A stretch of DNA of 64,000 nucleotides, taken from Macrolepiota albuminosa. Its lineage: Eukaryota; Basidiomycota; Agaricomycetes; Agaricales; Agaricaceae. Positions within the stretch are counted from its first letter, which is position 1; each line of letters starts with the position of its first letter. Shown here one piece after another: positions 1 through 64,000 of this stretch. The position numbers and the translations under genes are program-made. The stretch is from assembly GCA_027475525.1 (NCBI GenBank), contig JAMWFC010000005.1:1302001-1366000 (forward strand), read 5' to 3'. The notes beneath the pieces were generated by a model. The model saw only the letters and a list, made by a program, of their open reading frames with translations, ran no database searches and had not been told where the DNA came from.

Positions 1-1245
1 TCGCCCCGTCGATAGTACAAGCGCGTTTGAGGGCGCCACAACGATAGCACGGCTGGGCCCCAGTCGGGAACCAACAGCCTTCTGGGTCGTTATCCGCCCA
101 GCACTTATCACACTAGCGCTATAAGTCAGCAAGAGCTCAAAAAGACAGAAGAGTTACTTGCCGCTCCACGCGCCTCCTTAAATGCTTGCCGGGTCGCCAG
201 GGAAACGGTCTTCTTTCCCTTCATCTCCTCCATTACGACCCCGGCCTCCTGTCCTTTGTCAAGGACAGCTTCCTCCCGACGCGGCAAAAGCAAACCTCGC
301 AGTTCCTTGTCATCAAAGGAACGTTGTGTTGGCGCCTACAGAAACTTAGTAATTCACGTCCAAAGAAAAAAGTACCACTCACCGCGTATTGAGGAGCCGC
401 CTTGCGACTCTGTGAATGTCGTTAGCGACCGTCGGCAACGGCAAGCAAAATCAGCACTTACCTTGCGTTTGGAAGCACCTGCCGGCTTCCTCGGCGAGCC
501 CGACTTGCTAGCCGGCAGCACTGGGCTCGAAGTGCTACCGGCGCGACCTACCTTGCCGGATCCCTCTGCTACCGCCTGCCTCTCAACGGCAGGCGCCTTC
601 CCCGCGGCAACTTCCTCCATCTCTGCCGCCAACGCTGCCACCCTCTCTCGCTCCTCTATCCCCCTCATAATCTCGCGGGCGTCCTAGGAAACCTCCTCTT
701 GCCTTGCCGCGATCTCTTCTTCTACCTGCATACGCGCCAAGGGCGCCAACAACTCTTGCTTGCTATGGGGAGACAGATCAGACCACAGCTAAGTTAGAAA
801 TCAAAAATCAGAGATACTTACTCAGGCGCGGGAGCGCTTACTGTCATTGGCAAGGCACCAGACAAAATATCCTCCAACTCGTCCTCGATTGTAGGGACGG
901 GAGGAGGCGCCTGGCAATTCGATCAGCTAGCGATACGACAGGCAACAAAAGCAACTTACGAAACGGGAGAAGGGCGCTAACCACTCGGCGCCAAGATTGT
1001 CAACGTACCGCGCACGGCACCACTCCCGCACTTCAATCTCTCTGTCCCAGCCCATGCCAAGGACACGAACCTCGTACCATCGCTCAAGAAGTTTCATCAC
1101 GCCAACGACTAATTTTTGGGGCGCCTCGGCGCCAACGCCCTCAATATGACGGATGAAATTGTTGGCCTTCGCTATGTAGGCGTACGCCGCCTCTTGGGCA
1201 GCCTGAGAGGGAACAGGGGGGCGGAGTTGGAATGCGGAAAGACAT
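1..1245 (-). pseudogene. Family-A antisense accessory gene, partial copy (Zn-cluster protein)
   Basis: This is a second copy of the accessory gene found intact at 12404-14642, here on the minus strand and cut by the window start. The ATG is at 1245-1243. Exons match the A2 copy in order: N-terminal helical segment, a coiled-coil/Ser-rich exon (about 668-450), and the start of the cysteine-cluster exon at 112-1. The cluster (112-17) keeps all six cysteines with spacing x2, x8, x8, x2, x6, and the preceding intron ends in TAG at 114-113. Over the 37 codons compared by eye about 19 differ synonymously and 2 change the residue. One extra C in a run near 1213 shifts the frame about ten codons after the start, so the copy is probably broken unless that is a sequencing error. 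The protein is inferred to bind zinc and perhaps DNA. Confidence 0.75.
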
Positions 1246-11287: not shown

Positions 11288-12234
11288 TGATGACGCCCAA
11301 GGTTTGGTCAGTAACAAATGTAACGATTGTGTTACCGTACCAAGAGTGTGCGTTGGGCGCGCTAAAAGTAATGTGAGGAGTCCCGGGCAGGTCCCAGAGA
11401 ACGCGTCTGTGAAAAAGGGTAAAGTCGGTAACGAGGTCGGCAAGTGTCAAGCGCTAAGGTAAAGCGCCTAAGGAAATGCGGTAAGTGAACACGGCAATGT
11501 GAGCGGCAAGAGCACGATATGCTTAGCGAAGTCTAAGCGTCGATAATGCCTGCCGTAGTTGCAAGGCGCGAGTATGTCGAGTGTTGGCGAGCGTCTGCAA
11601 CTGCCGATGAGTTTTGACGTTGCCGACCATAGCGTAAATGAGCTCTTGACCGTAAGGGAGACTGAAGTAAAGGGGGAAACTCTGGTCTTTTCGTCTGTTT
11701 TTCTATGTACAAGTCGGTAAGTACTTTTATACTACAATGAGTTCGCCGTCGCCAGTGGCTAATGACGCCAGAGTGCGGTAAACTGGAAAATTTCAAAGGG
11801 GTAGCTCCAACGGTTTCAGATCCCTACCGTCCATTCAAGAGCCTTAGCGACGCCAGGCGACAGATCGCGAAGCTAAACCATCACTCCATCACCCTTCTGT
11901 CCGTCAGAGCACCTAAGCGATGTCAGGCGCCAAATTGAGACGCTAAGCGGTGTCAGACGCCAAGGTCAAACGCCAAGCTGTCCGTCAGTTTTTGATAGAT
12001 CATCAAGCTTCTCGCTAAGCGCTGTCGTCAGTGACTGATGCCATCTGTCAGTTGTCATTCTGTCTGCCGATCGGCGCTATCACTGATTGGATCTGCTTCT
12101 TGCCGTGCGCGGCCGTCAGAAATGGCTTAAAATAGGTAGAACACGTGCGCTAAGTTCGGAACGAGTGCGGCAAGGTTTCCGGAGCCGGTGCCGAGCCTGC
12201 CGTTGATGCGCCTAACCTGTATAGGGTCCTATCA
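11288..12234 (-). repeat. A2 3' LTR (element sense), 947 bp
   Basis: Matches 21484-22430 except for four transitions (two near 11623-11629, two near 12155-12160). It contains about twenty copies of CGSYAA/TTRSCG hexamers. The accessory gene starts 170 bp inside it on the opposite strand. Confidence 0.93.
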
Positions 12235-12243
12235 TCTCCCCCC
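12235..12243 (-). other. Polypurine tract of A2
   Basis: On the minus strand GGGGGGAGA abuts the 3' LTR. It is identical to the tract at 1408-1416 in copy A1. Confidence 0.75.
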
Positions 12244-12330
12244 AACTGAAAAATTGACTGTCCTCAGTCACCAAATAAGGCTACCGTTACCGCTTTTGTG
12301 ACAGGTGGTCCGTGCGTTCTTGAAATTTTG

Positions 12331-12337
12331 TTTATAG
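12331..12337 (+). promoter_or_regulatory. TATA-like box of accessory gene
   Basis: TTTATAG lies 67-73 nt before the ATG at 12404. The same box and surrounding bases are conserved in copy A1, so the accessory gene may have its own promoter beside the LTR. Confidence 0.4.
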
Positions 12338-12403
12338 TCCTGGCGTGTGAATTTGGACTTCGTTTCTTCTCCCCATCTTTTTCTGGCGCTCAACAATAAA
12401 AAT

Positions 12404-14642
12404 ATGTCCTTCCGTATTCCAACTCCGCCCCCCGTCCCATCTCAAGCTGCTCAAGAAGCCGCATACGCCTACATCGCCAAGGCAAACCGTTTCATTCGGC
12501 ATATTGAGGGCGTTGGCGCCGAGGCGTCTCAAAACTTGGTGGTTGGCGTGATGAAGTTGCTGGAGAGGTGGTATGAGGTGAGAGTCCTTGGCGTTGGGTG
12601 GGACCGCGAGATCGAGGTGCGGGAGTGGTGCCGCGCACGGTATGTCGACAATCGTGGTGCTGAGTGGTTAGCGCCCTTCTCCCGCTTTGTAAGTTGTTGT
12701 TTTTGCCTGGCGTGTCGCTAAGCTGATTGCTCTCTAGGCGCCTCCCCCTGTCCCCACCATCGAAGATGAGCTGGAGGACATCCTTTCTGGCGCGTTGCCG
12801 ATGACCGTAAGCGCATCGGCAACCGAGTGAGTATCTCCTGACCTTTCCTTCCTTAGCTATGGACTGAACTATCCCCTCGTAGCAAGCAAGAGGTACTGGA
12901 GCCTCTTGCTCGATTGCAGATCGAGCAAGAGCAGGAGGAGGCTGCCGCTGCCGCTGCCGCGCACTCCTTGGCGGTGGCGAGGGCAGAGCTCGCCAAGGAG
13001 CAGAAGAAGGAGTCCGTTGCCGAGGGTTCCAGCAAGGGGTCTCGCGCCGGCAGTGTTCAGAGCCCCACACTGCCGGCAGGCACACAGGGTTCGCCTTCAA
13101 AGCCTGGAAAGGCTTTGAAGAAAAAGGTAAGTCTGCTGTCGTTGGCGCTTCTTCTTACCGGTGGTAACTGTCGCTAGTCTCGCAAGGGGAAGGGTCCTCA
13201 ATACGAGGTACGCCGTCGTGACACTTTGCCGACCTTCTACTGACTCTCTCCCAGCTCCCTAGTCAGACTACTTTCGACGACAAGGAGTTGAAGGGTCTGC
13301 TCTTGCCGCGCCGGGAAGATGTAGTGATGGACGAGGGCATCGAGGGAGGAGTGGAGATTCCCGAGATGAAGAACAAGCGCACGGTTTCCCTGGCGACGCG
13401 CCAGGAGTTCAAAGATTCGCGTGGAGCGGTAAGTTGTCTTAGCCTTTTCGTATGATTTTTTGTTCTCAAGCAAAGTAGTGTGACAAATGTTGGGCCGATA
13501 ACGACCCAGAAAGTTGCTGGTTCCCCACTGGCGCCCAACCCTGTTACCGCTGCGGCACTCTCAAGCGTGCTTGCACAATCGACGGCGCCAAGAGTCGTGA
13601 GCGTGGCGGGGCGCCTGATGCCTTTGTCGAGAAGACCTTTTCCCGGGCGGTTTTGGTCAAGCGGGCTAGGGAGTTTGTCGAGGGGGAACGTAGGGAGGTT
13701 GCCGCTGGGAGAGCGGCGAAGATCAGCAAGTCCTCCTTGGCGCTGCCGACGCGCCAAGGAGATGAATCGGAATCGGTCGGACAGCGCGGCGCTGGCGAGC
13801 GCCAAGAAAAGCGCAAGGCCTCCTCCCCAAGCAAGGGCAAGGGTAAGGCCAAGCGCGTACGTATCGAGTCGCCCTCCCCCTCTCCAATTGCTGAGGACAC
13901 GGAGATGAGGGAGCTTGGAGAAGCTCTTGCCGCCAGCCGTCTTCCTCCCGTTAGCGGTGAGGCTGGCCCCAGCCGCCTACTGTCCCCTCTCTCTTTGCCT
14001 GAAGACGCGCCACACGATGTTTCGACTGCTGGCGCCCCAGGAGATGAGGGTGACGTGGTAATGGGGGAGCCCGCTGGCGCACAGGAGTTGGCCGGGGAGG
14101 AGGAGAAAAGGGAAGGGTCGCCAAGCCGCGAGGAGGAAGAGGGCGGCAATGAGGATGCTGAGGGGGAGTTGGAGGAGACTTTGCGGGACGGTCCTGGCGA
14201 GTCCCAGGAGTTGCCGACGGTGGAGCCTGCCGCCCCCTGGGTAAGTGAAGGCGACTTGGCGACACAGCTCTGGACGAGCTCGAGTGGGCCCTCGTCGTGG
14301 ACCCCCCAGCCTCAGCCACGAGTCACTGGCGACTCTTACGAGTGGCTGGGGGAGGACTTGGTGTATCCCGTGGTGGCCCTTTACCCGCCTCAGGTTATAG
14401 AGCGGCTGGGGGTTCGTGCGGCAAGCATGCGTGCGGTTTTGGGTCGCGAGCGCGAACGCGCTCGTCAACAGATCATGGCTTCGCGACTCAGGTACTCCAA
14501 CTTGACCCGTAGCATGGAGACCCTGGAGGAATACCAAGCCGACTGCAACGAGGCGCTAGAGTGGCAAGTCCTCAATCAGGTCCAGGTTGGCGACCTTCTG
14601 CCATTCGACGACTCCTTGCCGCTTTCCGATCGTGAAGACTGA
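12404..14642 (+). CDS. Antisense accessory gene: Zn2Cys6-like coiled-coil protein, 661 aa
   Basis: Exons 12404-12688, 12738-12826, 12883-13126, 13178-13207, 13255-13428 and 13479-14642 join in frame. All five introns are GT-AG, 47-56 nt. No product of this kind belongs to standard gag-pol. Residues 1-95 are helical with conserved Trp. Exon 3 is Glu/Ala-rich, probably coiled coil. Exon 6 opens with six cysteines, C-x2-C-x8-C-x8-C-x2-C-x6-C (residues 275-306), resembling the GAL4-type binuclear zinc cluster but with a longer first loop. A basic stretch, an acidic region and a C-terminal helix follow. The gene lies opposite gag-pol and converges on pol. A copy at 1-1245 keeps the cluster. Role unknown; DNA binding is inferred. 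I see no internal stop. Confidence 0.85.
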
Positions 14643-15065: not shown

Positions 15066-18000
15066 CTAATCGTTTTCTTCTTCTTCAACTAAAGTCGGCA
15101 AGTCATCATCGTCCAATAGTTCGGTTTCCTCAAGTTCTCTTAACTTGGCGGTGTCGATATCTAGCGCTTCAAGCGGCAAGTCAATGTGTTCTCTGGCGAG
15201 ATACGGCAATAGACGAAAGGCGGCAACAGGTCGATGTAGCACTGAACCATCTAGTTCACAGAGCACGTAAGCGCCTCCACGGTTACGGGAGATAACTACC
15301 AAAGGTCCAAGATAGCGCGGGCGCATTTTCTTGTTGTATGAGGTTTCAATTTTGGAGTTGCGCATAAGCACTAGCGCTCCTCTCGGGAAGTTGTAATCTT
15401 TGATAGTGGCGCTATGCTCGGTTTCGAATCGTAGGGCTGCTTGGCGACGGGCGCTAAAAACTACCTCGTGAAGTCGCTCCAAATCTTCTTTCCTTCGCTG
15501 GAGATCAATGGCTCGTCTGGCGATAAGGTCGGTAGTCGCTAAGATACTGTTGGGTGCTGGCTGAAGATAGGTCGCTTCTATAATGTCGGCAGGGAGTAAC
15601 GGATGGGTGCCAGTAGCCGCGTAATAGGGAGAGCAACCCATGCGCTTACGAATAGTAACCCTTTCTGACCAGAACACTGAATAGGTCGCTTCGCTCCAAC
15701 GAGATTCGTCGCCATCGACTGCCTTGAAAAGTGCTTGCCGAACGTCAAAGTGTGGTCTCTCTACCAGGCCATTGGCGCGCTTGTTGTAGCCAGATACTCG
15801 AATGTGGTGAATGTTGTATTTCTTGGCGAGGTATGTTAGCGCTTTGATGATGGGCGCACCGTTATCCGTGACGATTTCTCTTAGCGCTCCCCAACGGCAG
15901 ATGACGTCCTCAAACAGCCACTTGGCGACCGCCTCGGTATTTTCTCTTTGAAGCATGCGAAACTCAGGCCAGTGGATTAGCGAGCAACGACCTTGGATGA
16001 TGTACTTATAGCGACCAGATTTGGGCATGTGCATGGTATCAACGTAGATTTTGCTGAAGAGGGGAGCTGGCGTTGCAACGGTTGGCGGTATGAGCACTTG
16101 GCGTGTCTGTTGGATTTGGCAGAGGTGGCAAGTCCTGATGTACCAGGCGATGTCGGCACTAGCGTGTGGCCACCAGAATCGTTCTAACAGAGAAGCTCGG
16201 GTAGCGTACAGACCTCTATGTCCTAGCTCGTCATGCATAGCGCGCAAGACTCGTAAGCGACCATCTGGCTTGATGATCAACTTGTGAGCGCCATCTCGAT
16301 TTCGTCGCCAAAGTCGGTTGTCGGTAAAGAAGAAGTGGGTAGCATATCGGATAAAGGTAGCGTATTGTTCGTCGGTAAGGTCTGGGGGTCGCTTAAGGTC
16401 TTGTATCCATTGCTCGACTACTAACAGACGACTATCTTCCGCCTTTGCCTTGGCGGATCGGGGGACGGCATCGTAGGTCAGGTTTCTGCTGTCTTCTCTT
16501 AGCGACTGGGGTTCCTGTACGACTTTTACTGGAGGCAAGTCTTGTCCAAGGATGCTTGCCGTGTAGAATGTGAGGGGTGCGCTAAAGGTCTCGGGGCGGT
16601 AAGGGATAATGGGATGTAGAAGGATGCTGGTAGGCTGTTGCCGTCGTAGTAGGGGTATTGGCTGTTGTATAAGGTGCACGAAACCATGTAAACGGTCGAT
16701 CCAATCCTCGAAATCGCTATCAGCCTGTGGATCCACTGCCGGGTCGCCAAGCTGCCGTGGTCGCCTAGAGAGTCCATCTGGTCCGTGGAAAGAGCTCTTG
16801 ACGTGTACCAGTTCAAAGTGAAACATGAGGATAGCGACTACCCACCGGTTCATGCTAGCGGATGGCTGGATGTCGGGATTCTGCAGCATGCCTTTGATGT
16901 ACCTAGCGTCGACTTCAACAATAAGGTTGCGCACGCCAATCAAATACATCTTTAGCGACCGGAAGGTTTTGAAAAGCCCATAGAGCTCTAGCTTAGGCTG
17001 ACTGTAGCGAGATTCTCGATCGTTTAGCGTAATAGACCCAAAGCGGTTGTAGCGTCGCTGTTTCCGATTGTCGCTAAGGCATTGGCACAAGAAGTAGCCA
17101 ACGGCAATGTACGAGGTGTCCACCGCCAAGATAACAGGGTCGGCAGAAGTATAGTCGATTGGAACTAGGGGCTTGGCGTCTTGTAGGGCTTTTACTAAGT
17201 CTCGTTGTGCGGTAACCTGGTCTGGCCCAAATTCGAAGGGCTCGTTAGCGCGGGTGAGTCGGTTAAGAGCATGTGCGCGATGGGCAAAGTTTTTGACGAA
17301 GATCCTGAGAACGCCAACGGTACCAAGAAAGGCGCGAACTTCAGATAAGTCGCGGCAAGGACCCCATCGCTCCAGGAGTGCTAAGCGAGACTCGTCGGGA
17401 ACACGACCGTCGGGAGTGCAGATGTGACCGAGTATTTTGAACCTTGGCGCGCATAGGAGGAGTTTGTGGCCGCTAAAAGTACCACTGCTATACTTCATAC
17501 GTTGGAGAACTCGATTGAGCAGCAAGAAAAATTCCCATAGCGCTAAGCGAATGTTGGAGTTGTCGGGATGGGTCGCCGGTAAGCCGTTTACAAGTCGCCA
17601 GTCTTTGGGGCCTTTGACGCCAACGTCATCAATGAAGCTTAGGACGTTATGTGGTATCTCGGGTTGGAGGATGAATGTGATGTCGTCATGGAATATGGGG
17701 ACTGAGTTTGTCCAGCCCATCGGTAAGGTGACTAGGCGCAGTGCGCCAAACGGAGTTTGAAACGTAGTGAGATCCCGGGAAGAGGGGTGTATTAAGCGTT
17801 CATCGTAGCCAACGTAGAGATCAAGGGTGGCGCCACAAATGCGCCCGGCAAAGGACTCGGCAACGTGATCAGGGAAAGGCGGTACGCCAGAGTGTCGTAT
17901 GGTGACTCTATTCAGTGGTTCAAGACTGTGGACTATGCGTAGATTGCCGTTCTTTTTGAGGACGCAGAACCAACGGGAGCGGTAAGAACTATTTGAGGGC

Positions 18001-18815
18001 TCGTAGACGCCAGCCTGTATCTTGGTCCTAATGATTTGGCAGACCTCGGCTTCGATTCCCGGCGGTAACGGTCGATTGTGCTCAGTCCATGGCACGTGAG
18101 GGATGGTCGGGATCACCACAGGCGGGAAGAAGTCTGTACGTAGGCTGCCGCGTTCTGAGTCCTCCCAAGCGAAGGCTTTGTCTTGCTTAGCGACAAGATC
18201 GGTAAGGACGTTCAACTCATCTTTGGTCAAAAATCCTGTGTCGTGCTCCTTGGCGAACTGCTGCTGGCGCTCCGTGGTAAAACGTCCTGTGGGCTGAAAG
18301 GGTGGCGGATTCGGCGATAAAGTTGGCATGTCGGCAAGAGGGTCGCCAATGATCTGGCGCTCGATTCTAAACGTCTCGGGAGAGTGCGTAGCGATGGGTT
18401 TTGTTTTAAGCGCAACTGGCTTATATTTCTTTTTAACTTGTACCCCTTTCCTTTTGGGAGCGTTAGCTTGGTTATACACAAATGTGGAAAGGGGAACTGT
18501 AGCCTGAGGAGCGGCAAGTCCGAGAACGGCAGGAGCTGAGGCCCCGGGAAGGGTAGTGAGATAAGTATCGGTAGACGCAATATTTTGAAAAGATTCGGAA
18601 GCGGTAAGGTACAAGTAGGCAAGAGAGGAGTCGGTAATGTTTTGGTTTTTCTGGGAAGGCTCTGCGTCGATAGTGGGTAAAGTAGTTAAAACGTCTTGGT
18701 CAAGAAAAGCAGTAGACATAACAGTTACAAGACCAGTTGAATGGTCATATTCCAGCGTTAGCGCTACATCTCCGTGATCGTCGCCAATCACCTCCTCGAT
18801 GGTCTGTGAAAACAC
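15066..18815 (-). CDS. pol: A2 Pol: reverse transcriptase, RNase H, integrase
   Basis: One uninterrupted frame of about 1250 codons. An N-terminal linker precedes the RT, whose active site is FIDDVGVKGP (about residue 392) after TLDLYVGYDER and TLPMGWTNS. RNase H follows (AVDTSYIAVGYFLCQ, about 557). Integrase has the HHCC zinc domain (HDELGHRGLY ... CHLCQ, from about 858) and catalytic D, D, E at YVDTMHMP (about 923), VTDNGAP (about 978) and LVERPHF (about 1016). A GPY/F-like module (MRPRYLGPLVVIS) lies near the end. The frame is -1 relative to the protease frame and overlaps it, so expression probably needs frameshifting; the frame is open back to about 18862 and 18815 is not a real start codon. 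It encodes cDNA synthesis and integration enzymes. Confidence 0.93.
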   Translation of the reverse strand: MFSQTIEEVIGDDHGDVALTLEYDHSTGLVTVMSTAFLDQDVLTTLPTIDAEPSQKNQNITDSSLAYLYLTASESFQNIASTDTYLTTLPGASAPAVLGLAAPQATVPLSTFVYNQANAPKRKGVQVKKKYKPVALKTKPIATHSPETFRIERQIIGDPLADMPTLSPNPPPFQPTGRFTTERQQQFAKEHDTGFLTKDELNVLTDLVAKQDKAFAWEDSERGSLRTDFFPPVVIPTIPHVPWTEHNRPLPPGIEAEVCQIIRTKIQAGVYEPSNSSYRSRWFCVLKKNGNLRIVHSLEPLNRVTIRHSGVPPFPDHVAESFAGRICGATLDLYVGYDERLIHPSSRDLTTFQTPFGALRLVTLPMGWTNSVPIFHDDITFILQPEIPHNVLSFIDDVGVKGPKDWRLVNGLPATHPDNSNIRLALWEFFLLLNRVLQRMKYSSGTFSGHKLLLCAPRFKILGHICTPDGRVPDESRLALLERWGPCRDLSEVRAFLGTVGVLRIFVKNFAHRAHALNRLTRANEPFEFGPDQVTAQRDLVKALQDAKPLVPIDYTSADPVILAVDTSYIAVGYFLCQCLSDNRKQRRYNRFGSITLNDRESRYSQPKLELYGLFKTFRSLKMYLIGVRNLIVEVDARYIKGMLQNPDIQPSASMNRWVVAILMFHFELVHVKSSFHGPDGLSRRPRQLGDPAVDPQADSDFEDWIDRLHGFVHLIQQPIPLLRRQQPTSILLHPIIPYRPETFSAPLTFYTASILGQDLPPVKVVQEPQSLREDSRNLTYDAVPRSAKAKAEDSRLLVVEQWIQDLKRPPDLTDEQYATFIRYATHFFFTDNRLWRRNRDGAHKLIIKPDGRLRVLRAMHDELGHRGLYATRASLLERFWWPHASADIAWYIRTCHLCQIQQTRQVLIPPTVATPAPLFSKIYVDTMHMPKSGRYKYIIQGRCSLIHWPEFRMLQRENTEAVAKWLFEDVICRWGALREIVTDNGAPIIKALTYLAKKYNIHHIRVSGYNKRANGLVERPHFDVRQALFKAVDGDESRWSEATYSVFWSERVTIRKRMGCSPYYAATGTHPLLPADIIEATYLQPAPNSILATTDLIARRAIDLQRRKEDLERLHEVVFSARRQAALRFETEHSATIKDYNFPRGALVLMRNSKIETSYNKKMRPRYLGPLVVISRNRGGAYVLCELDGSVLHRPVAAFRLLPYLAREHIDLPLEALDIDTAKLRELEETELLDDDDLPTLVEEEEND

Positions 18816-19945
18816 CTGTGGGGAGGCTCGTTGGCGTGCTGGTCGGTAAACTCCGGGGGCTTAGCGCGGGCGCCTTTTCGTTGTCCCCTAGGGAACGTTG
18901 GCACCGTTCGTCGGATTCCGGAATTGGGGTCGCTAATTGTGAGGGTCGTTTCCTCGTCGGTAACTGTCTTGACGACTGATCGCGCCAAGACGTCGAAGGG
19001 TCTGCCAAGTAGTAGGTCGTAAGCTGGTGAGCGTAAAATGTGTATCTGAAGATAGAACGTAATGTCGCCAAGAGTGCACGGCACATTCTTGGCGAGGCCT
19101 AGGGATCGGTCTACTGTGCCGTTAGCACTCTGCATATTTAGTATAACCGTAGGGTCGTAAATGAGGCCTAGATCGTTAGCGACTTCTGCTGCCATAGAAA
19201 TAATCTGAGACCCGCTATCCACGATTGCTTCTACCTCGTGTTTATTGTCTACGGTTAGCGCGACCGAGCGGATAGCGTGCGATTCTTGAGCGACGGTAAG
19301 AATTGCGGGGTCCTCTCCATGGTCTACAGACCTAAGGTAGGTCTCTACTGGGTCCACAGAAGTGGCGTTAGCGATGGGGTCGGCAAGAGAATCTTCAGCG
19401 TCCAGCGAGTTGACGGTAACAGAGAAACCAGGAAGCGCATCGTCGAGTTCATCAACCTCGGCAACGGCTGTCGCCAAGGGTCGTCGGGGAGTGACTGCCG
19501 TCTTGACCTGGTTGCGGACGTCGGGAGCAATACTACAAAGTTCTTCTACAGATAAGGTAACATTGGTTTTCATGATGCGGTTAAAGACGTGATTCGATTT
19601 TTCAATGTCGAAAATTGGCGCGGTAGGTCGGTAGCCACCCTCAGGACGTTTCTCGGGAGCGGCAAAGTTTCGTTGTGCGGGAGCGTGATAACGGTCGGGA
19701 ATCCCTGAATAGGGATGGAGAGGCGGCAAAGGCGGTTCGGGAGCGGTAGCGGACGACGATGGTTCTGAAGCAGGAGCAGGGGCAGTGGCAGGAGGTGCGG
19801 CAGGAGCAGGTGTCGGTAACTTGCTAGCGGGAGGCATCGGCTTGTATCCTTTAAGAGGTTGTTTGGGCTGCTTAACTTCAACCCCATCAAAGACCTGATT
19901 CTTAAGCGAATCCAACTCCTGTTGGAGCTTGGCGATACGTTCTTC
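18788..19945 (-). CDS. A2 spacer-protease (retropepsin)
   Basis: This frame is continuous with gag, separated only by the TGA at 19948-19946, and ends at 18788. A Pro/Ala-rich linker of about 80 residues is followed by a conserved block (APIFDIEKSNHVFNRIMKT) and then the aspartic protease: VEAIVDSGSQIISM (active-site D-S-G) and the DLLLGRPFDVLA strand. It would process Gag and Pol. There is no ATG for the first 30 codons after the TGA, so synthesis by readthrough, or a recent nonsense mutation in a gag-PR fusion, is likely. The decayed relative at 63.3 kb has a sense codon (CAG) at this position. Confidence 0.85.
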   Translation of the reverse strand, partial: EERIAKLQQELDSLKNQVFDGVEVKQPKQPLKGYKPMPPASKLPTPAPAAPPATAPAPASEPSSSATAPEPPLPPLHPYSGIPDRYHAPAQRNFAAPEKRPEGGYRPTAPIFDIEKSNHVFNRIMKTNVTLSVEELCSIAPDVRNQVKTAVTPRRPLATAVAEVDELDDALPGFSVTVNSLDAEDSLADPIANATSVDPVETYLRSVDHGEDPAILTVAQESHAIRSVALTVDNKHEVEAIVDSGSQIISMAAEVANDLGLIYDPTVILNMQSANGTVDRSLGLAKNVPCTLGDITFYLQIHILRSPAYDLLLGRPFDVLARSVVKTVTDEETTLTISDPNSGIRRTVPTFPRGQRKGARAKPPEFTDQHANEPPHRCFHRPSRR

Positions 19946-21100
19946 TCACGAGAATGTAGGATGGTCGCCAACGCTGTCGAAATGTAAAACCTCGTGAATC
20001 ATCTGCTGTTGAGTCGCCTGTTCTGGGTCGGGGTTGGCGTTGCCAGATAGCGTGCCGGTAACGATTTGTCCTGGGTTGCGCCTATGCCATTCATCAACTC
20101 GCTCCTGGAAGGACTTCTTGTCTGGGTAGTTGGGAATGATGGCGCCAGTGGTGAGAACTATCTTGCCGTCGATAGCCCGTCGAATTTTCCCTTGCCGAAT
20201 ATAATTCTCCAAAGTCGCGCAGCGTCCTCTCGTCATGGTGTGGCCAATTTCCCCACAGAAGTGGCAAGGGCCAGGTGCGGGTACGTTAGCGGGTCGGTTA
20301 GCAGTCAGGTTGGTGGTAATCATAGTTTCAATACGCGTCATAGCGGAAGCGACGGCGGCGGTAATAGCAGCGTTGAGTTCCTCCTTCTTAACAAAGTCGG
20401 CAACAGGAGGTGGGATGGGAATGATACCGTTAGTTCGCTCAGGTGGTGGGCTCGTCCTAGCGCGCTGCAGCCCAACGCCAGTGTCCGTTCCCTTGAGAAC
20501 CCATTTACCAGCTTCAAAGACGTCGGCAACGTTATAGGGCTCGTCTGGGTGATGAGCCTGGTGAACTATCTCTAGGCGACGAGCAATACGAGTCCACAAT
20601 GAAGTCGGGATGCCTTGCTGAAATAGGCGACGCTCCTCGTTAATATAGAGCTTGCCGTTCTGCAGAAGCCACCTAGCGATTTTCTGGAATTTGCGGTAAT
20701 ATGTAGAGAATGCGCCAAGGGACGAAGTGCCACTGTCGAAAGATTCCTGAACTAGTTTTTGGAGCTCGTTTACCGTGTATCGGGTAGCCTCCTCGGCGCC
20801 AGGGTACAGCTGGATTACTGCCGTCTTCCAGTCCTCATACGAAGCGCCTTGGGCTGGAGCTGGTGGGGCGGCAGGAACAAAGGCGGCAAACTCGGTCAAA
20901 CCTGTCCACGTCTCTGCCGTGTCATACGATACGTATCTTGCCGCATACTCCTTCATCTGCGTATGGTCGGTAATGTTACAATCTCTGAATAGATACTCCA
21001 ACTCCTTAAAATACTGGGAGAGCTCCCGTGGCTTGGACTCGTCCCATTTCGGTGCCAAGAAGTGGTTGCGTGGCGGCATGCGCTGAACTTGTTGTTCCAT
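19946..21100 (-). CDS. gag: A2 Gag (capsid-nucleocapsid), 384 aa
   Basis: Starts at the first ATG in frame, 21100. The capsid-like region has KPRELSQYFKELEYLFRDC and YRKFQKIARWLLQNGKL. A CCHC-type knuckle CHFCGEIGHTMTRGRC (C-x2-C-x4-H-x6-C) lies at about residues 280-295. It forms the virus-like particle and binds RNA. The frame stays open upstream of the ATG for about 110 codons to a TAG next to the primer-binding site, without another ATG, so a longer product from a non-AUG start is possible. It ends at a TGA followed in frame by the protease. Confidence 0.9.
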   Translation of the reverse strand: MEQQVQRMPPRNHFLAPKWDESKPRELSQYFKELEYLFRDCNITDHTQMKEYAARYVSYDTAETWTGLTEFAAFVPAAPPAPAQGASYEDWKTAVIQLYPGAEEATRYTVNELQKLVQESFDSGTSSLGAFSTYYRKFQKIARWLLQNGKLYINEERRLFQQGIPTSLWTRIARRLEIVHQAHHPDEPYNVADVFEAGKWVLKGTDTGVGLQRARTSPPPERTNGIIPIPPPVADFVKKEELNAAITAAVASAMTRIETMITTNLTANRPANVPAPGPCHFCGEIGHTMTRGRCATLENYIRQGKIRRAIDGKIVLTTGAIIPNYPDKKSFQERVDEWHRRNPGQIVTGTLSGNANPDPEQATQQQMIHEVLHFDSVGDHPTFS

Positions 21101-21483: not shown

Positions 21484-22507
21484 TGATGACGCCCAAGGTT
21501 TGGTCAGTAACAAATGTAACGATTGTGTTACCGTACCAAGAGTGTGCGTTGGGCGCGCTAAAAGTAATGTGAGGAGTCCCGGGCAGGTCCCAGAGAACGC
21601 GTCTGTGAAAAAGGGTAAAGTCGGTAACGAGGTCGGCAAGTGTCAAGCGCTAAGGTAAAGCGCCTAAGGAAATGCGGTAAGTGAACACGGCAATGTGAGC
21701 GGCAAGAGCACGATATGCTTAGCGAAGTCTAAGCGTCGATAATGCCTGCCGTAGTTGCAAGGCGCGAGTATGTCGAGTGTTGGCGAGCGTCTGCAACTGC
21801 CGATGAGTTTTGACGTTGCTGACCGTAGCGTAAATGAGCTCTTGACCGTAAGGGAGACTGAAGTAAAGGGGGAAACTCTGGTCTTTTCGTCTGTTTTTCT
21901 ATGTACAAGTCGGTAAGTACTTTTATACTACAATGAGTTCGCCGTCGCCAGTGGCTAATGACGCCAGAGTGCGGTAAACTGGAAAATTTCAAAGGGGTAG
22001 CTCCAACGGTTTCAGATCCCTACCGTCCATTCAAGAGCCTTAGCGACGCCAGGCGACAGATCGCGAAGCTAAACCATCACTCCATCACCCTTCTGTCCGT
22101 CAGAGCACCTAAGCGATGTCAGGCGCCAAATTGAGACGCTAAGCGGTGTCAGACGCCAAGGTCAAACGCCAAGCTGTCCGTCAGTTTTTGATAGATCATC
22201 AAGCTTCTCGCTAAGCGCTGTCGTCAGTGACTGATGCCATCTGTCAGTTGTCATTCTGTCTGCCGATCGGCGCTATCACTGATTGGATCTGCTTCTTGCC
22301 GTGCGCGGCCGTCAGAAATGGCTTAAAATAGGTAGAACACGTGCGCTAAGTTTGAAACGAGTGCGGCAAGGTTTCCGGAGCCGGTGCCGAGCCTGCCGTT
22401 GATGCGCCTAACCTGTATAGGGTCCTATCAGAAACGAGTGCGGCAAGGTTTCCGGAGCCGGTGCCGAGCCTGCCGTTGATGCGCCTAACCTGTATAGGGT
22501 CCTATCA
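21484..22507 (-). repeat. A2 5' LTR (element sense) with duplicated end
   Basis: 21484-22430 is the 947-bp LTR. 22431-22507 repeats the preceding 77 bp exactly (22354-22430), so the outer LTR end appears twice as assembled. Confidence 0.9.
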
Positions 22508-25768: not shown

Positions 25769-27343
25769 ATGGTCTCTAGAGCCGTCCTCAGCCGCGTTCT
25801 CAGGTCTGCTGCTCGTAGCCAGGCGAGTATGATCTCACCATCGTTTCTCGCCGTCTAATACGTCTATAGCGTCCACTCCGGACATACGCGACAGCGCACA
25901 ACGTTTCTGGACCTTTGACCCAGGTCTCGACGCTCTCTAATGGCCTCACAATAGCCACAGAGACCCAAGCTCATGCTCAAACCGCAACAGTCGGTGTCTG
26001 GATTGATGCTGGTTCACGAGCAGAGACCGACAAAACCAATGGAACTGCCCACTTCTTGGAACATATGGCCTTCAAGGGAACTAACCGTCGTTCACAACAC
26101 TCTCTTGAGCTTGAGGTTGAGAACATTGGTGCTCACCTCAATGCATATACCTCCCGTGAACAGACTGTGTACTATGCCAAGAGCTTCCGCAAGGATGTTC
26201 CAGTTGCTGTCGACATCATCTCTGACATCCTCCAGAACTCTAAGCTCGACAGTTCTGCCATGGAACGCGAACGAGACGTCATTATAAGGGAACAGGAGGA
26301 GGTTGACAAGCAGCTTGAAGAAGTCGTGTTTGACCACCTTCATGCTGTTGCTTTCCAGGGTACGCTATGTCGTTATACATTGCGAACTTCATAAAAACTA
26401 AATATTATTTGATAAACAGGTCAACCCCTTGGTCGTACCATTCTTGGTCCGACAGCGAATATATTGTCCATTAAGCGCGAAGATCTTGCTACGTACATTA
26501 AAACTAACTACACCGCTGATCGCATGGTCCTTGTCGGCACTGGTGGCGTTGAACACGCAGAACTCGTCAGACTCGCTGAAAAGCACTTTGCTTCACTTCC
26601 TGTGTCTTCCAATCCAATTCCTCTTGGACGTCTCTCCCACCCCAAGACCACCTTTGTTGGCTCCGAGGTTCGCATCCGCAACGATGAGCTCCCCACTGCC
26701 AATGTTGCTATTGCTGTCGAGGGTGTCGGCTGGAGCTCCCCTGACTACTTCCCCATGATGGTCATGCAGAGTATCTTTGGCAACTGGGACCGTGCTCTTG
26801 GTGCCTCTCCCCTCTTGTCTTCCCGTCTCTCTCATATCATCTCCTCCAACAACCTTGCCAATTCGTTCATGTCCTTTTCGACTTCGTACTCTGACACGGG
26901 TCTTTGGGGCATCTACCTCGTTTCCGAGAACCTTCGTAACCTCGATGATCTCATGCATTTTACGCTTCGCGAGTGGACGCGTATGAGCATAGCACCAACA
27001 GAGGTGGAGGTTGAGCGGGCCAAGAGCCAGCTCAAGGCTGGACTCCTCCTTAGTCTTGATGGCACGACTGCTATCGCAGAAGACATTGGAAGGCAGCTCG
27101 TGACAAGTGGAAGACGTTTGACCCCTCAACAAATTGAGAGTGCCGTCGATGCTGTGACAGTTGACGAAATCAAGCGCGTTGCACAAAAATACTTGTGGGA
27201 TAAGGACGTGCGTTGTAAACCCTTTTTTCAATGGATCTTATTTTCTCATTGTGAAATAGTTCGCGTTGGCCGCAACTGGTAACATCGAGGGTCTGCTTGA
27301 TTACAACCGTCTCCGGGCCGACATGTCCTCGATGATGTATTAG
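25769..27343 (+). CDS. MAS1: Mitochondrial processing peptidase beta subunit, 471 aa
   Basis: Exons 25769-25822, 25870-26359, 26420-27207 and 27260-27343 join in frame. The first intron (25823-25869) starts with GC rather than GT; the others are GT-AG. Residues 1-30 form an Arg/Ser-rich mitochondrial presequence ([18 protein letters not shown]). The M16 zinc motif HFLEH lies in [14 protein letters not shown], with the downstream glutamates in [15 protein letters not shown]. The glycine-rich C-terminal half and the final [14 protein letters not shown] match the family, and length is normal. It cleaves presequences in the mitochondrial matrix as a heterodimer with the alpha subunit. All key residues are present. 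Confidence 0.95.
25823..25869 (+). other. GC-AG intron of MPP-beta
   Basis: Donor CAG|GCGAGT, acceptor CTATAG, branch-like CTAAT near 25856. Only this junction keeps frame with the presequence; the nearby GT at 25827 gives the wrong frame. Confidence 0.75.
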
Positions 27344-40087: not shown

Positions 40088-41812
40088 ATGTCGCGTACGC
40101 CAACCCATTCCCCGACGCCCCCCCAAACTAACGAGGTCGCACCCCTCATGGCCTGGGAGGCCCGGGATGCGCGGTACCGAGCGCGCCTGGACTGGGAGCG
40201 TGTGGCAGCTCTTGTGCGACAACGTGAGTGCTTCCCGCGCTGCCCGTTTGTCGTTACTAACCTTCCCTTTTCAGAACAACACATCATTACTGCCCCGGAG
40301 GCGGGTCCCAGCCGGCTCCCGGAGCCTGTCCCTGGTGCAGGTCCCGGGGGTCCTTCAGGTGCCAGTTGTCCCGTGCCCACTTTTGCGTGGATGACCGTGC
40401 GTCCCCCCCGTCCCCCTCCCCCTCCTTGCCCTAGACTGGTTGCCCCTCGTTTCCGTCGCTCTGGGATGGTGGTGAGGGCCATTTCTGAGGTCCTGGAGGC
40501 CCAGCGCGTTGAGTGGGCCAGCGCATCGCAGGAGGCCTTCGAGGGGGCGCTAGTGAGGCCCCAGGGCCTGCCTCCCCATGCCTGGTGTATCAGCAACAGG
40601 CCGGTAAGCAGCTTTGTACCTCTGGTCCCGTGGCTAATCCTTCCTAGTGTCTCCACTGTGCGCGTCGCTTGGTGATGTGCTTGTTTGAGGTCCCGTCCGC
40701 CTCGTCCCAGCGCGACACTTCCATGTGCGAGGCCTGTCACCTCAATCATGAGCAGTGTTCTGTTTTGGCCCTCTAGAGGGCATATTGCGTTTTGCGGGAG
40801 CAAGGTTGGCCGTTGGGGGGAATCACTCGGAGGATGGGGGTGGAGGAGAGGGATTGGGTCGTGGAGGCGGCGGCGGTTCAGGAGGAGGTGCCGGGGGAGG
40901 CCCCTGGGGGTGGGGTGGGAGGGCGGGGGTTTGTCCAGGTGGGCGGCTGAGGCCGGCCCGTGGTCTTGATCACACGCCGGGTGACCCAGTCCGGCGTCCC
41001 AGGGCAGGAGCAATTTGAGGGGTGCCCAGACAAGGGAAAACGGCGGGCATCGCCTAGCCCTTTCCCGGGGCCCTCCAAGAGGGTGCGCTTGCCCCTGGAG
41101 ACCTCATCTCCGGTCTCCCCCCCGCACCTATTCCCAGCAACATTCTCCCCCCTGTCTGGGGGACTCCAAGCTGGCAAAGTCGGGGCCCTGCAGGAGCGGG
41201 GGCAGGGGGGCCACGGGAAGGAGGCGAGGAAGGAGGCGGCAGCTGGGCAGGGTCTGGAGGAGGGCCAGGAGGTGATGATCCGGGACCTGGAGGAGGCCAG
41301 GGTCGCCCAGGGGGAAGCGGAAGCTGAGTTGGAGGCTCTGAGGGCGAGGCTTGGGCAAGGAGTGGGGTTCCCAGGGAGCGAGGGGTTGGCGGAGGCTCTG
41401 TGCCAGGACGTGGTGGTGGCCCGCATGGCCTCGTTAAGTGGGTTTTCTTCTTCTCAGACTTGGTCCCTTACTGACATTCCTAGGCTGGGCCTGAGAGCAC
41501 CGCTTGCTCTTGAACGGGGCGGCCGCAGCACTCGCGGCGCTGCAAGAGGGGCAGCGCCCTGAGGTGACGACCCCCGGAGTGGAGCGGGGCCTCGATTTGC
41601 TGGGGCGAGTGGTAGCGGCACACCGGGGGAAGAACATGCCTGCCCCCAGTTCCTGGTTCGAAAGAGTCCTGGACGAGGGTGAGGCTCTCCCGTCCTGGGA
41701 GCAGTTGGCGGAGGAAGTCTTGCAGGAGCACGGTCCGGAGGGAATGGGGGAGGCCTTCCAGGGCTGGCCGAGGAGGGGGGAGGGTGAGGGTAGTTCGGGG
41801 CCCCAGCTCTAG
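40088..41812 (+). pseudogene. Antisense accessory gene of family B, Zn2Cys6 protein (nonsense-mutated)
   Basis: Plus strand, starting 128 bp inside the LTR, opposite to gag-pol. Predicted exons are 40088-40223, 40275-40603, 40648-41437 and 41484-41812, with introns of 44-51 nt ending in AG. Exon 3 opens with C-x2-C-x6-C-x15-C-x2-C-x6-C (40648 to about 40758), the spacing of fungal binuclear zinc clusters. A Pro-rich segment precedes it; basic (KRRAS, SKRVRL) and Glu-rich coiled-coil parts follow (about 41200-41390). In-frame stops are at 40774-40776 (TAG), 40948-40950 (TGA) and 41492-41494 (TGA), at sites that could have been CAG, CGA and CGA. Position, splicing and cysteine cluster parallel the family-A accessory gene, though sequence similarity is slight. 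Confidence 0.65.
40906..40929 (+). other. G-quadruplex-type motif
   Basis: Five G runs of three to five separated by single bases. It lies on the sense strand of the accessory gene, so the RNA could also fold. Confidence 0.6.
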
Positions 41813-62189: not shown

Positions 62190-63345
62190 GCAACCACTTC
62201 TCAGCATCTAAATGGGACAAATCTAAGCCAAGAAAACTCCCAGTATTTTAAAGAATTAGAGTATTTATTCAGGGATTATGAAGTTACTGACCACACATAA
62301 ATGAAGAAATACGTGGCACAATACATATCTTATGATATGACAGAGACATGAACAGATCTTTCCAAGTTTGCCATATTCATTCCTGCTGTGCAATTGGCTT
62401 AAGCTCAAGGTGCCTTGTATGAAGGTTGGAAAATAGCAGTCATACAGTTATATTCTGGTGCTCAAGAGGCTATCTAATACATGGTAAATGAGTTACAGAA
62501 ACTGGTACAGGAATTATTTGACAATGGCACATATTCTCTTAACATGTTCTCCATGTATTACTGAGAATTTCAAAAGATTGCTAGATGGCTTCTGCAAAAT
62601 GGCAAGCTTTATATTAATAAAAAACATCACCTATTCCAACAGAGCATATCAACTTCACTTTGGACTTGTATTGCTCATCGCCTAGAAATCGTTCAACCAA
62701 CACACCATCCAAAGGAGCCATATAATGTTGCCAACATCTTCAAAGCAGGCAAATGGATTCTCAAGGGTATGGACACTAGTGTTGGCATGCATCACATTAG
62801 GATGAGCCCATCTTTTAAACAAACTAACAGTATTATTCCCATCTCACCAGCTGTTTTCGATTTTATTAAGAAAGAAGATCTAAATACTGCTATTACTGCT
62901 GCTGTTGCTTCTGCTATGACACAAATTTAAATCATGATCACTACCAATCTCACTGCTAACCAACCTGCTAATGCACCCATGTCTGGCCCTTGCCACTTTT
63001 GTGGGGAAATTGGCCACACAATAACTAAAGGACGTTATGCCACTTTAGAAAATTATGTTTGGCAAGGAAGAATTAAAAGGGCTATTGACAGCAAGATAGT
63101 CCTAACCACTGGTGCCACCATCCCCAACTATCCAGACAAAAAGTCTTTCCAGGAATAGGTTGATGAATGGCATAGACGCAATCTAGGGCAAATAGTTATA
63201 AACACATTTTCTGACAACGCTAATCTAGATCCAGAACAGGCAACCCAGCAACAAATAATTCACAAGGTTTTACACTTTGACAGTGTTGGCAACCACCCCA
63301 TCTTCTTGCAGGAAGAATGTATTGCTAAGCTACAGAAGGAGTTAG
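62190..63345 (+). pseudogene. A3 Gag remnant
   Basis: Colinear with A2 Gag. The longest open piece, 62934-63158, holds CHFCGEIGHTITKGR with the last knuckle cysteine changed to Tyr. Upstream pieces read like A2 (KYLFRD-type block) but are full of stops. At the position of the A2 gag TGA this copy has CAG, so gag and protease are joined in frame. Confidence 0.75.
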
Positions 63346-64000
63346 ATTTACTTAAAAATTAGGTTTTTGATGAGGTTGAAGTTAAATAGCTTAAACAGTC
63401 TTTTAAAGAATATAAGCCAATGCCTTCTACTAGCAACATGCTGACTTCCACTCCTGCTGCACTTTCAGCTTTAAACTTGGAACTATCCTCATTTTTTGCT
63501 GCTCCCAAAGCACCTTTGCCATTTCTCCACCCCTATGCAGGGATCTCTGATCAATATCATGCACCTACACAACAAAACTTTGCTGCTCTTGAGAAACATC
63601 CTGAGGGCAATTACCAACCTACTGCACCAATATTTGACATAGAGAAATCTAACCACATCTTCAGTCATATTATGAAAACTGCAGTCATCTTGTCAGTAGA
63701 AGAATTGTGTAGCATAGTGCCTGATGTTTAAAACCAGGTCAAAACAGCAGTCACTCCCAGACAACCTTTGGCAACATCTCTTGCCAAAGCAAACAAACTT
63801 GATAATGCACTTCCTGGTTTTTCTATTACTGTCGACTCACCTAGCAATGACAAACCCTCTGCTGATGCTGTCGCTAACACCACTTCTATGGACCTGAAAG
63901 AGACTTACCTTAGATTAGTAGAAAACAATAAAGACCTGGCAATTCTTACCATCACTCAGGAGTTATATATCAGATCAGTTGCGCTTACCATGGACAACAA
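63346..64000 (+). pseudogene. A3 linker-protease remnant, cut by window end
   Basis: Matches the A2 spacer-protease from its start. The block APIFDIEKSNHIFSHIMKT (about 63625-63685) is conserved, with a TAA shortly after and a TAG near 63361. The D-S-G site lies outside the window. Confidence 0.75.

Follow-up and report, generated by a model that had tools for sequence, protein, structure and literature searches.

An intron-bearing antisense gene under protein-level selection between pol and the 3′ LTR of a Ty3/gypsy retrotransposon of Macrolepiota albuminosa

The window analyzed here, 64,000 nucleotides of the Macrolepiota albuminosa genome, contains an LTR retrotransposon, A2, on the minus strand (Table 1). 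Each of its two LTRs begins with TG and ends with CA, and a comparison over 946 positions shows 4 differences between them. A polypurine tract abuts the 3′ LTR on the element strand, and GCAT is common to both outer flanks, a likely target duplication judged by eye and allowing for a 77-bp repeat at the 5′ LTR. The LTRs, the polypurine tract and the order protease, reverse transcriptase (RT), RNase H, integrase identify A2 as a Ty3/gypsy element. RNase H and the integrase zinc-binding domain were located by profile, and the RT and the integrase core were recognized by eye from their motifs.

The interval from pol to the 3′ LTR holds, in antisense to gag-pol, six exons that can be joined through five introns into 661 codons followed by TGA. 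This gene model, rebuilt from the sequence, reproduces the preliminary description in its six exons, its five GT-AG introns of 47–56 nt, its length and its antisense location. Both the place (between pol and the 3′ LTR) and the orientation (antisense to gag-pol) are those that define the class of antisense ORFs named aORF-3R. The start codon lies 170 bp from the 3′ LTR, and the intervening stretch is 86–96% identical to the window copy in the 11 other copies compared. Exon 6 opens with the cysteine pattern reported earlier, C-x2-C-x8-C-x8-C-x2-C-x6-C, the first cysteine being residue 275.

Table 1. Features of element A2, of the neighboring copy A1 and of element family B in the window (position 1 is the first nucleotide of the window).
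Feature	Position	Strand	Remarks
A1 antisense gene, part	1..1245	-	neighboring copy, element on + strand; divergent type; GC intron-5 donor
3′ LTR of A2	11288..12234	-	
LTR-to-start stretch	12235..12403	+	polypurine tract on the element strand, adjoining the LTR; putative promoter and presumed leader of the antisense gene
Exon 1	12404..12688	+	start codon at 12404; encodes the N-terminal part, modeled as helical in the relative P0001
Intron 1	12689..12737	+	GT-AG, 49 nt
Exon 2	12738..12826	+	
Intron 2	12827..12882	+	GT-AG, 56 nt
Exon 3	12883..13126	+	
Intron 3	13127..13177	+	GT-AG, 51 nt
Exon 4	13178..13207	+	
Intron 4	13208..13254	+	GT-AG, 47 nt
Exon 5	13255..13428	+	
Intron 5	13429..13478	+	GT-AG, 50 nt; phase 0; immediately 5′ of the first cysteine codon
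Exon 6	13479..14642	+	six-cysteine cluster at 13479-13574, then a basic stretch, an acidic one modeled with low confidence, a long helix at the C-terminus and the stop codon
pol ORF of A2	15066..18815	-	profile matches for RNase H and the integrase zinc-binding domain; RT and integrase core by eye
Protease ORF of A2	18788..19945	-	
gag ORF of A2	19946..21100	-	CCHC-like knuckle; profile match under cut-off, E 0.27
5′ LTR of A2	21484..22430	-	exact 77-bp tandem repeat from 22354 extends past outer end
Family B antisense gene	40088..41812	+	limits approximate, by eye; introns 40224-40274 and 40604-40647; further intron near 41432-41485
Family B six-cysteine exon (exon 3)	from 40648	+	stops in window copy

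The repeat at the 5′ LTR is one of eight exact 77-bp tandem duplications in the window (at 1699, 2056, 22354, 22686, 39617, 43058, 48834 and 49133). Fifty occur in 261 kb of fetched loci, and many gene copies were found as two pieces that overlap by 77 bp or slightly more. Most likely, these duplications are k-mer overlap artefacts of the assembly. Elsewhere in the window, a gag-like stretch (62237-63469) is 75% like the A2 gag and lies in the opposite orientation; neither pol nor the antisense gene was found in G000:C126:1369600-1373600. An ORF at 26464-27282 encodes a peptidase M16 inactive domain and is probably a host gene.

A search of the window's own genome (G000, 100.1 Mb) with the gene gave 58 matching pieces (40 scored of 521 candidates). 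Forty copies (L001–L040) were fetched, and 25 of them, the window copy (L001) and 24 others, were aligned, each having one piece of at least 2,200 of the 2,239 bases; the alignment did not include the 15 copies that were split over two or more pieces. For the spliced frame, dN/dS is 0.12 as a ratio of means (mean dN 0.0446, mean dS 0.3675) with a median of 0.11, based on those pairs (289 of 300) whose dS exceeds 0.02. The corresponding ratios are 1.64 and 1.85 in the two shifted frames and 0.50 to 1.15 in the three sense-strand frames. Variation at first, second and third codon positions is 0.056, 0.039 and 0.198, respectively, with 0.173 in the introns; the corresponding values for exon 1 are 0.044, 0.020 and 0.247. 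In blocks of 60 codons, the N-terminus has the lowest dN/dS of the protein (0.04) and codons 361–540 have the highest (0.21–0.28). Indel events relative to the window copy number 4 in exons and 82 in introns, as counts over copies rather than independent events. With projected exon borders, the frame is unbroken in 16 of the 25 copies and broken in nine. The antisense gene of A2 is a real protein-coding gene and not a chance reading frame, a case that can now be made more strongly than the preliminary description could make it, and we have little doubt that it is encoded by the element and maintained by selection on its protein.

Individual copies depart from the gene model at single borders. 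The donor of intron 3 lies 3 nt earlier in some copies (L017, L018, L022), still within a GT-AG intron, and AT replaces GT at a donor in L016, L022 and L026, at intron 1 in L022, which is one of the 16 copies with an unbroken frame, and at intron 3 in L026. The neighboring copy A1 has GC in place of GT at the intron-5 donor, a gap spans the start of intron 2 in L047, and the start codon of L044 is absent from the alignment. One junction, that of intron 5 with exon 6, was followed through the entire genome. Its acceptor/exon border pattern (at most two mismatches) occurs at 575 sites and its backward control at none; a few of the 575 are single copies counted twice via the 77-bp duplication, such as two listed C74 sites that are 77 bases apart. 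No intron-less exon-5/exon-6 junction was found in the genome, the three matches, at two mismatches, all reading as intron acceptors. At this junction, the earlier proposal that the introns survive retrotransposition is borne out. Since intron 5 survives and the intron-less form was not found, spliced antisense mRNA does not seem to have returned to the genome by reverse transcription. It follows from the orientation of the gene that its introns pass through reverse transcription because the genomic RNA is the complementary strand, on which they are unrecognized. The gene shows how a spliced gene can persist in an element that replicates through RNA.

The linkage of the gene to the element was assessed in 50 loci, picked by their match to the gene and not by pol, which include the window copy (L001) and A1 (L041), a copy extending into the window. 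A pol gene adjoins the antisense gene on the opposite strand in 49 of them; the sole exception, L031, has no pol inside its 1.5 kb flank. None of the printed best pol matches (up to two per locus) is in the same sense. In these loci, therefore, the relatives are linked to pol rather than being unlinked host genes, and the gene is not a lone captured pseudogene. The only relatives found by protein searches are hypothetical proteins of Termitomyces: eight in a first search (34–55% identity) and 61 in a profile search, 66 different proteins in total (P0001–P0066). These are homologous to the A2 protein along its length (P0001 has 37% identity over 98% of the query), and many contain a related CDKCW cysteine segment. 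The full cysteine spacing is kept in 19 of the 66, many of which, unlike the A2 protein, are fragments. These relatives suggest that the window belongs to an Agaricales lineage.

The canonical Zn2Cys6 motif of fungal transcription factors is C-x2-C-x6-C-x5-12-C-x2-C-x6-8-C. Judged by its spacing, the cysteine segment of the A2 protein resembles this pattern but fails to fit it. It shares with the Zn2Cys6 factors (Zn_clus) the six cysteines in two C-x2-C groups and the basic residues, followed by helical and acidic parts. However, its first loop has eight residues instead of six, and no Zn_clus match was obtained for nine family members at E <= 10, a search in which the HMMER filters drop most weak matches. 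Neither spacing nor profile therefore supports a Zn2Cys6 domain (PF00172) or the label "Zn2Cys6-like" that the gene had been given. The window protein has no Pfam match at E <= 1, TRP28 (PF04195) and bZIP included. Neither a related solved structure by sequence search nor a trustworthy fold match for the models was found. The model of P0001 has confident helices at residues 6–104 and 542–606 and little confidence over most of the remainder, and the model of the window exon 6 agrees with it on the long C-terminal helix, with high confidence. Both models have low confidence over the cysteines, for which a two-zinc fold is at most a candidate.

The antisense gene exists in divergent types. A search with the protein sequence of exon 6 gave 126 matched rows (107 scored of 1,248 candidates) at 58 to 100% identity, with a stop in 25 of the 126. 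Three loci (L047, L049 and L050) are close to A2 in the LTR (92–94% identity), the LTR-to-start stretch (91–92%) and the last 1 kb of pol (91–96%), whereas their antisense genes have only 71% identity in exons and 49–50% in introns. Synonymous divergence from A2 in these loci ranges, by segment, from 0.85 to saturation in the gene, compared to 0.25–0.29 in pol. Similarly, the exon 6 of A1 is 55% identical to that of A2, yet the adjoining pol is 97% identical. In other copies of the comparison, such as L042, the LTR is as low as 80% and the gene 89%, so that LTR and gene run parallel in neither direction. The intron positions are common to these divergent types, even though intron identity is just 43–53% in the five most divergent of the 11 copies compared. 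That gene types so divergent share their intron positions and occur on backbones with similar LTRs and pol goes beyond what the preliminary description had noticed. Tree tests for a single origin gave p = 0.33 for pol and p = 0.0545 for the LTR (43 of the 50 loci, with three divergent rows only).

As the gene is far more divergent than LTR and pol in these loci, its lineages seem to predate their present backbones. Elements exchanging the gene, or homogenization of everything else, would explain this mismatch. The independence of LTR sequence and gene type means that there is no sign of the LTR and the protein changing together. We tentatively suggest, as a possibility that we would not yet favor, that the antisense gene is an exchangeable module, old types of which circulate under purifying selection among similar backbones, and that the second, distant Ty3/gypsy family has a related one. 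Retrotransposons of this fungal lineage would then share a recombining module for control or self-recognition, comparable to phages, where regulator types differ between otherwise similar genomes.

The second family, also unnoticed before, has its own intron-bearing antisense gene with a six-cysteine exon in the window. Element B has repeated ends near 39.2-40.0 and 49.4-50.1 kb. Its pol contains RVT_1, RNase H and Tf2-type domains, and about 2 kb separates pol from the 3′ LTR. From the genome search (59 matching pieces, 40 scored of 755 candidates), eight further copies were picked for comparison with the window copy. Third-position variation in these nine rows marks a plus-strand frame from about 40600 to 41400 and a different frame from 41410 onward, as a further intron there would require; the signal is weak in the exon before the cysteines and absent in the first exon. 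The GT donor of the putative intron 2 is present in nine of nine rows, and that of the putative intron 1 is lost in two (L063 and L066). The six-cysteine exon reads C-x2-C-x6-C-x15-C-x2-C-x6-C in six of the nine copies, with the x6 first loop of the Zn2Cys6 motif but a middle loop of 15 residues. By hand count, the intron before this exon is of phase 0 and the first cysteine codon opens the exon, an arrangement also seen in family A. The common phase-0 intron before the first cysteine hints that the antisense genes of the two families may be of common descent.

Taken as a whole, the data are best explained by an accessory protein gene owned by the element, whose product may be a nuclear DNA-binding regulator, and we regard this explanation as moderately probable; for DNA-binding regulation by itself, we put the chances at about even. 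Transcription would run towards pol, with a promoter most likely located either in the 3′ LTR or within the 170-bp LTR-to-start stretch, and the transcript would be spliced five times to encode the protein of 661 residues. From the models and composition, this protein would consist of a helical N-terminal domain, a basic six-cysteine segment, an acidic stretch that is probably disordered and, at the C-terminus, a long helix that probably forms a coiled coil. It may enter the nucleus, dimerize through the C-terminal helix and bind DNA via the cysteine segment, possibly with zinc, the most likely target being the LTR of the element itself. By doing so, it could tune transcription or integration of the element, like the antisense regulator HBZ of HTLV-1. 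A possible target is CGCTAAG, which occurs six times in the A2 LTR (11288-12234), where the maximum for any 7-mer in 300 resamples is five, and four to six times per LTR end in ten other copies, with none in the window at 23-39 kb. This word is a lead only, having been chosen after the fact, and enrichment of 6- or 8-letter words in the LTR does not exceed the resample maximum.

Alternatively, the protein could be an accessory factor of the particle, of nuclear entry or of integration (a nucleic-acid chaperone, tether or import factor) rather than a regulator of transcription. We find this doubtful, although its basic segments, low-order stretches and coiled coil would suit such a role equally well, LTR sequence is independent of gene type, and accessory-type roles have been suggested for plant antisense ORFs in the portion of PMC7264820 that treats them. 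Against it, gag, protease and pol are present without the antisense protein, and antisense expression with its own splicing would better suit a separately timed product than a part of the particle. It is improbable that the antisense transcript matters instead of the protein, by pairing with the genomic RNA and feeding or blocking silencing. Such transcripts are discussed as sources of double-stranded RNA in a section of PMC7264820, but the constraint observed here falls on codons and splice sites, and a role of the RNA alone needs no open frame; the RNA may act in addition to the protein. More improbable still is a host gene captured by the element that is now a passenger or a decaying pseudogene. 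The introns and the look of an ordinary fungal gene would fit such a capture, and the nine broken copies would fit decay; the low dN/dS of the spliced frame (0.12), the 575 border sites and the adjoining pol in 49 of 50 loci oppose it and largely refute it already. An accident of sequence composition opposite a true sense-strand gene is ruled out by the codon-position variation and has a negligible probability: the sense-strand frames also have stop-free runs (median up to 255 codons), but their dN/dS of 0.50–1.15 against 0.12, and splice sites mostly retained across copies, speak for the spliced frame.

Antisense accessory genes of retrotransposons are known, but their purpose is not. For the element-owned protein gene favored here, function becomes directly testable through the combination of protein-level selection, introns, hundreds of border sites, several natural types whose backbones are similar and the parallel offered by family B. 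Its five introns also ease the detection of antisense expression, since a read across any of the junctions must derive from the antisense mRNA.

The layout itself has precedents. The preliminary description did not recognize it among described Ty3/gypsy elements, but plant elements are known to have antisense ORFs in this interval between pol and the 3′ LTR, as covered by the relevant part of a review that names Boty of Botrytis as a non-plant case (PMC7264820). Among the papers searched for such a gene in fungi or basidiomycetes, none was found beyond the Botrytis brtn gene, and the available portion of PMC5408684 describes no antisense genes in rotifer elements with extra ORFs. The plant Ty3/gypsy elements (Grande gene23, RIRE2, Retand TRP28) resemble A2 in the place and orientation of the gene. 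In the plants, it is kept in most copies of a family, and DNA binding or nuclear location has been suggested for the proteins, according to parts of PMC7264820 and PMC11963269. They differ from the A2 gene, which lacks a TRP28 match and has five introns and the six-cysteine exon; as the word "intron" is absent from the main text of these two papers, the contrast in introns is not an established one. The brtn gene of the Boty-like elements of Botrytis cinerea is likewise an extra gene of a fungal Ty3/gypsy element, placed in antisense between pol and the 3′ LTR, in passages of PMC7264820, PMC8365987 and PMC4227169. Boty differs in being an ascomycete element with a chromodomain, in a passage of PMC4227169, and brtn is compared with the A2 gene by description only. 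HBZ of HTLV-1 and the APH proteins of HTLV-2 to 4 differ from the A2 protein, which has no bZIP match and whose gene has five introns, and no sequence relation is seen or expected. They nevertheless offer the likeness of a spliced antisense gene under the control of a 3′ LTR, and HBZ is nuclear and regulatory, as outlined in part of PMC10186651.
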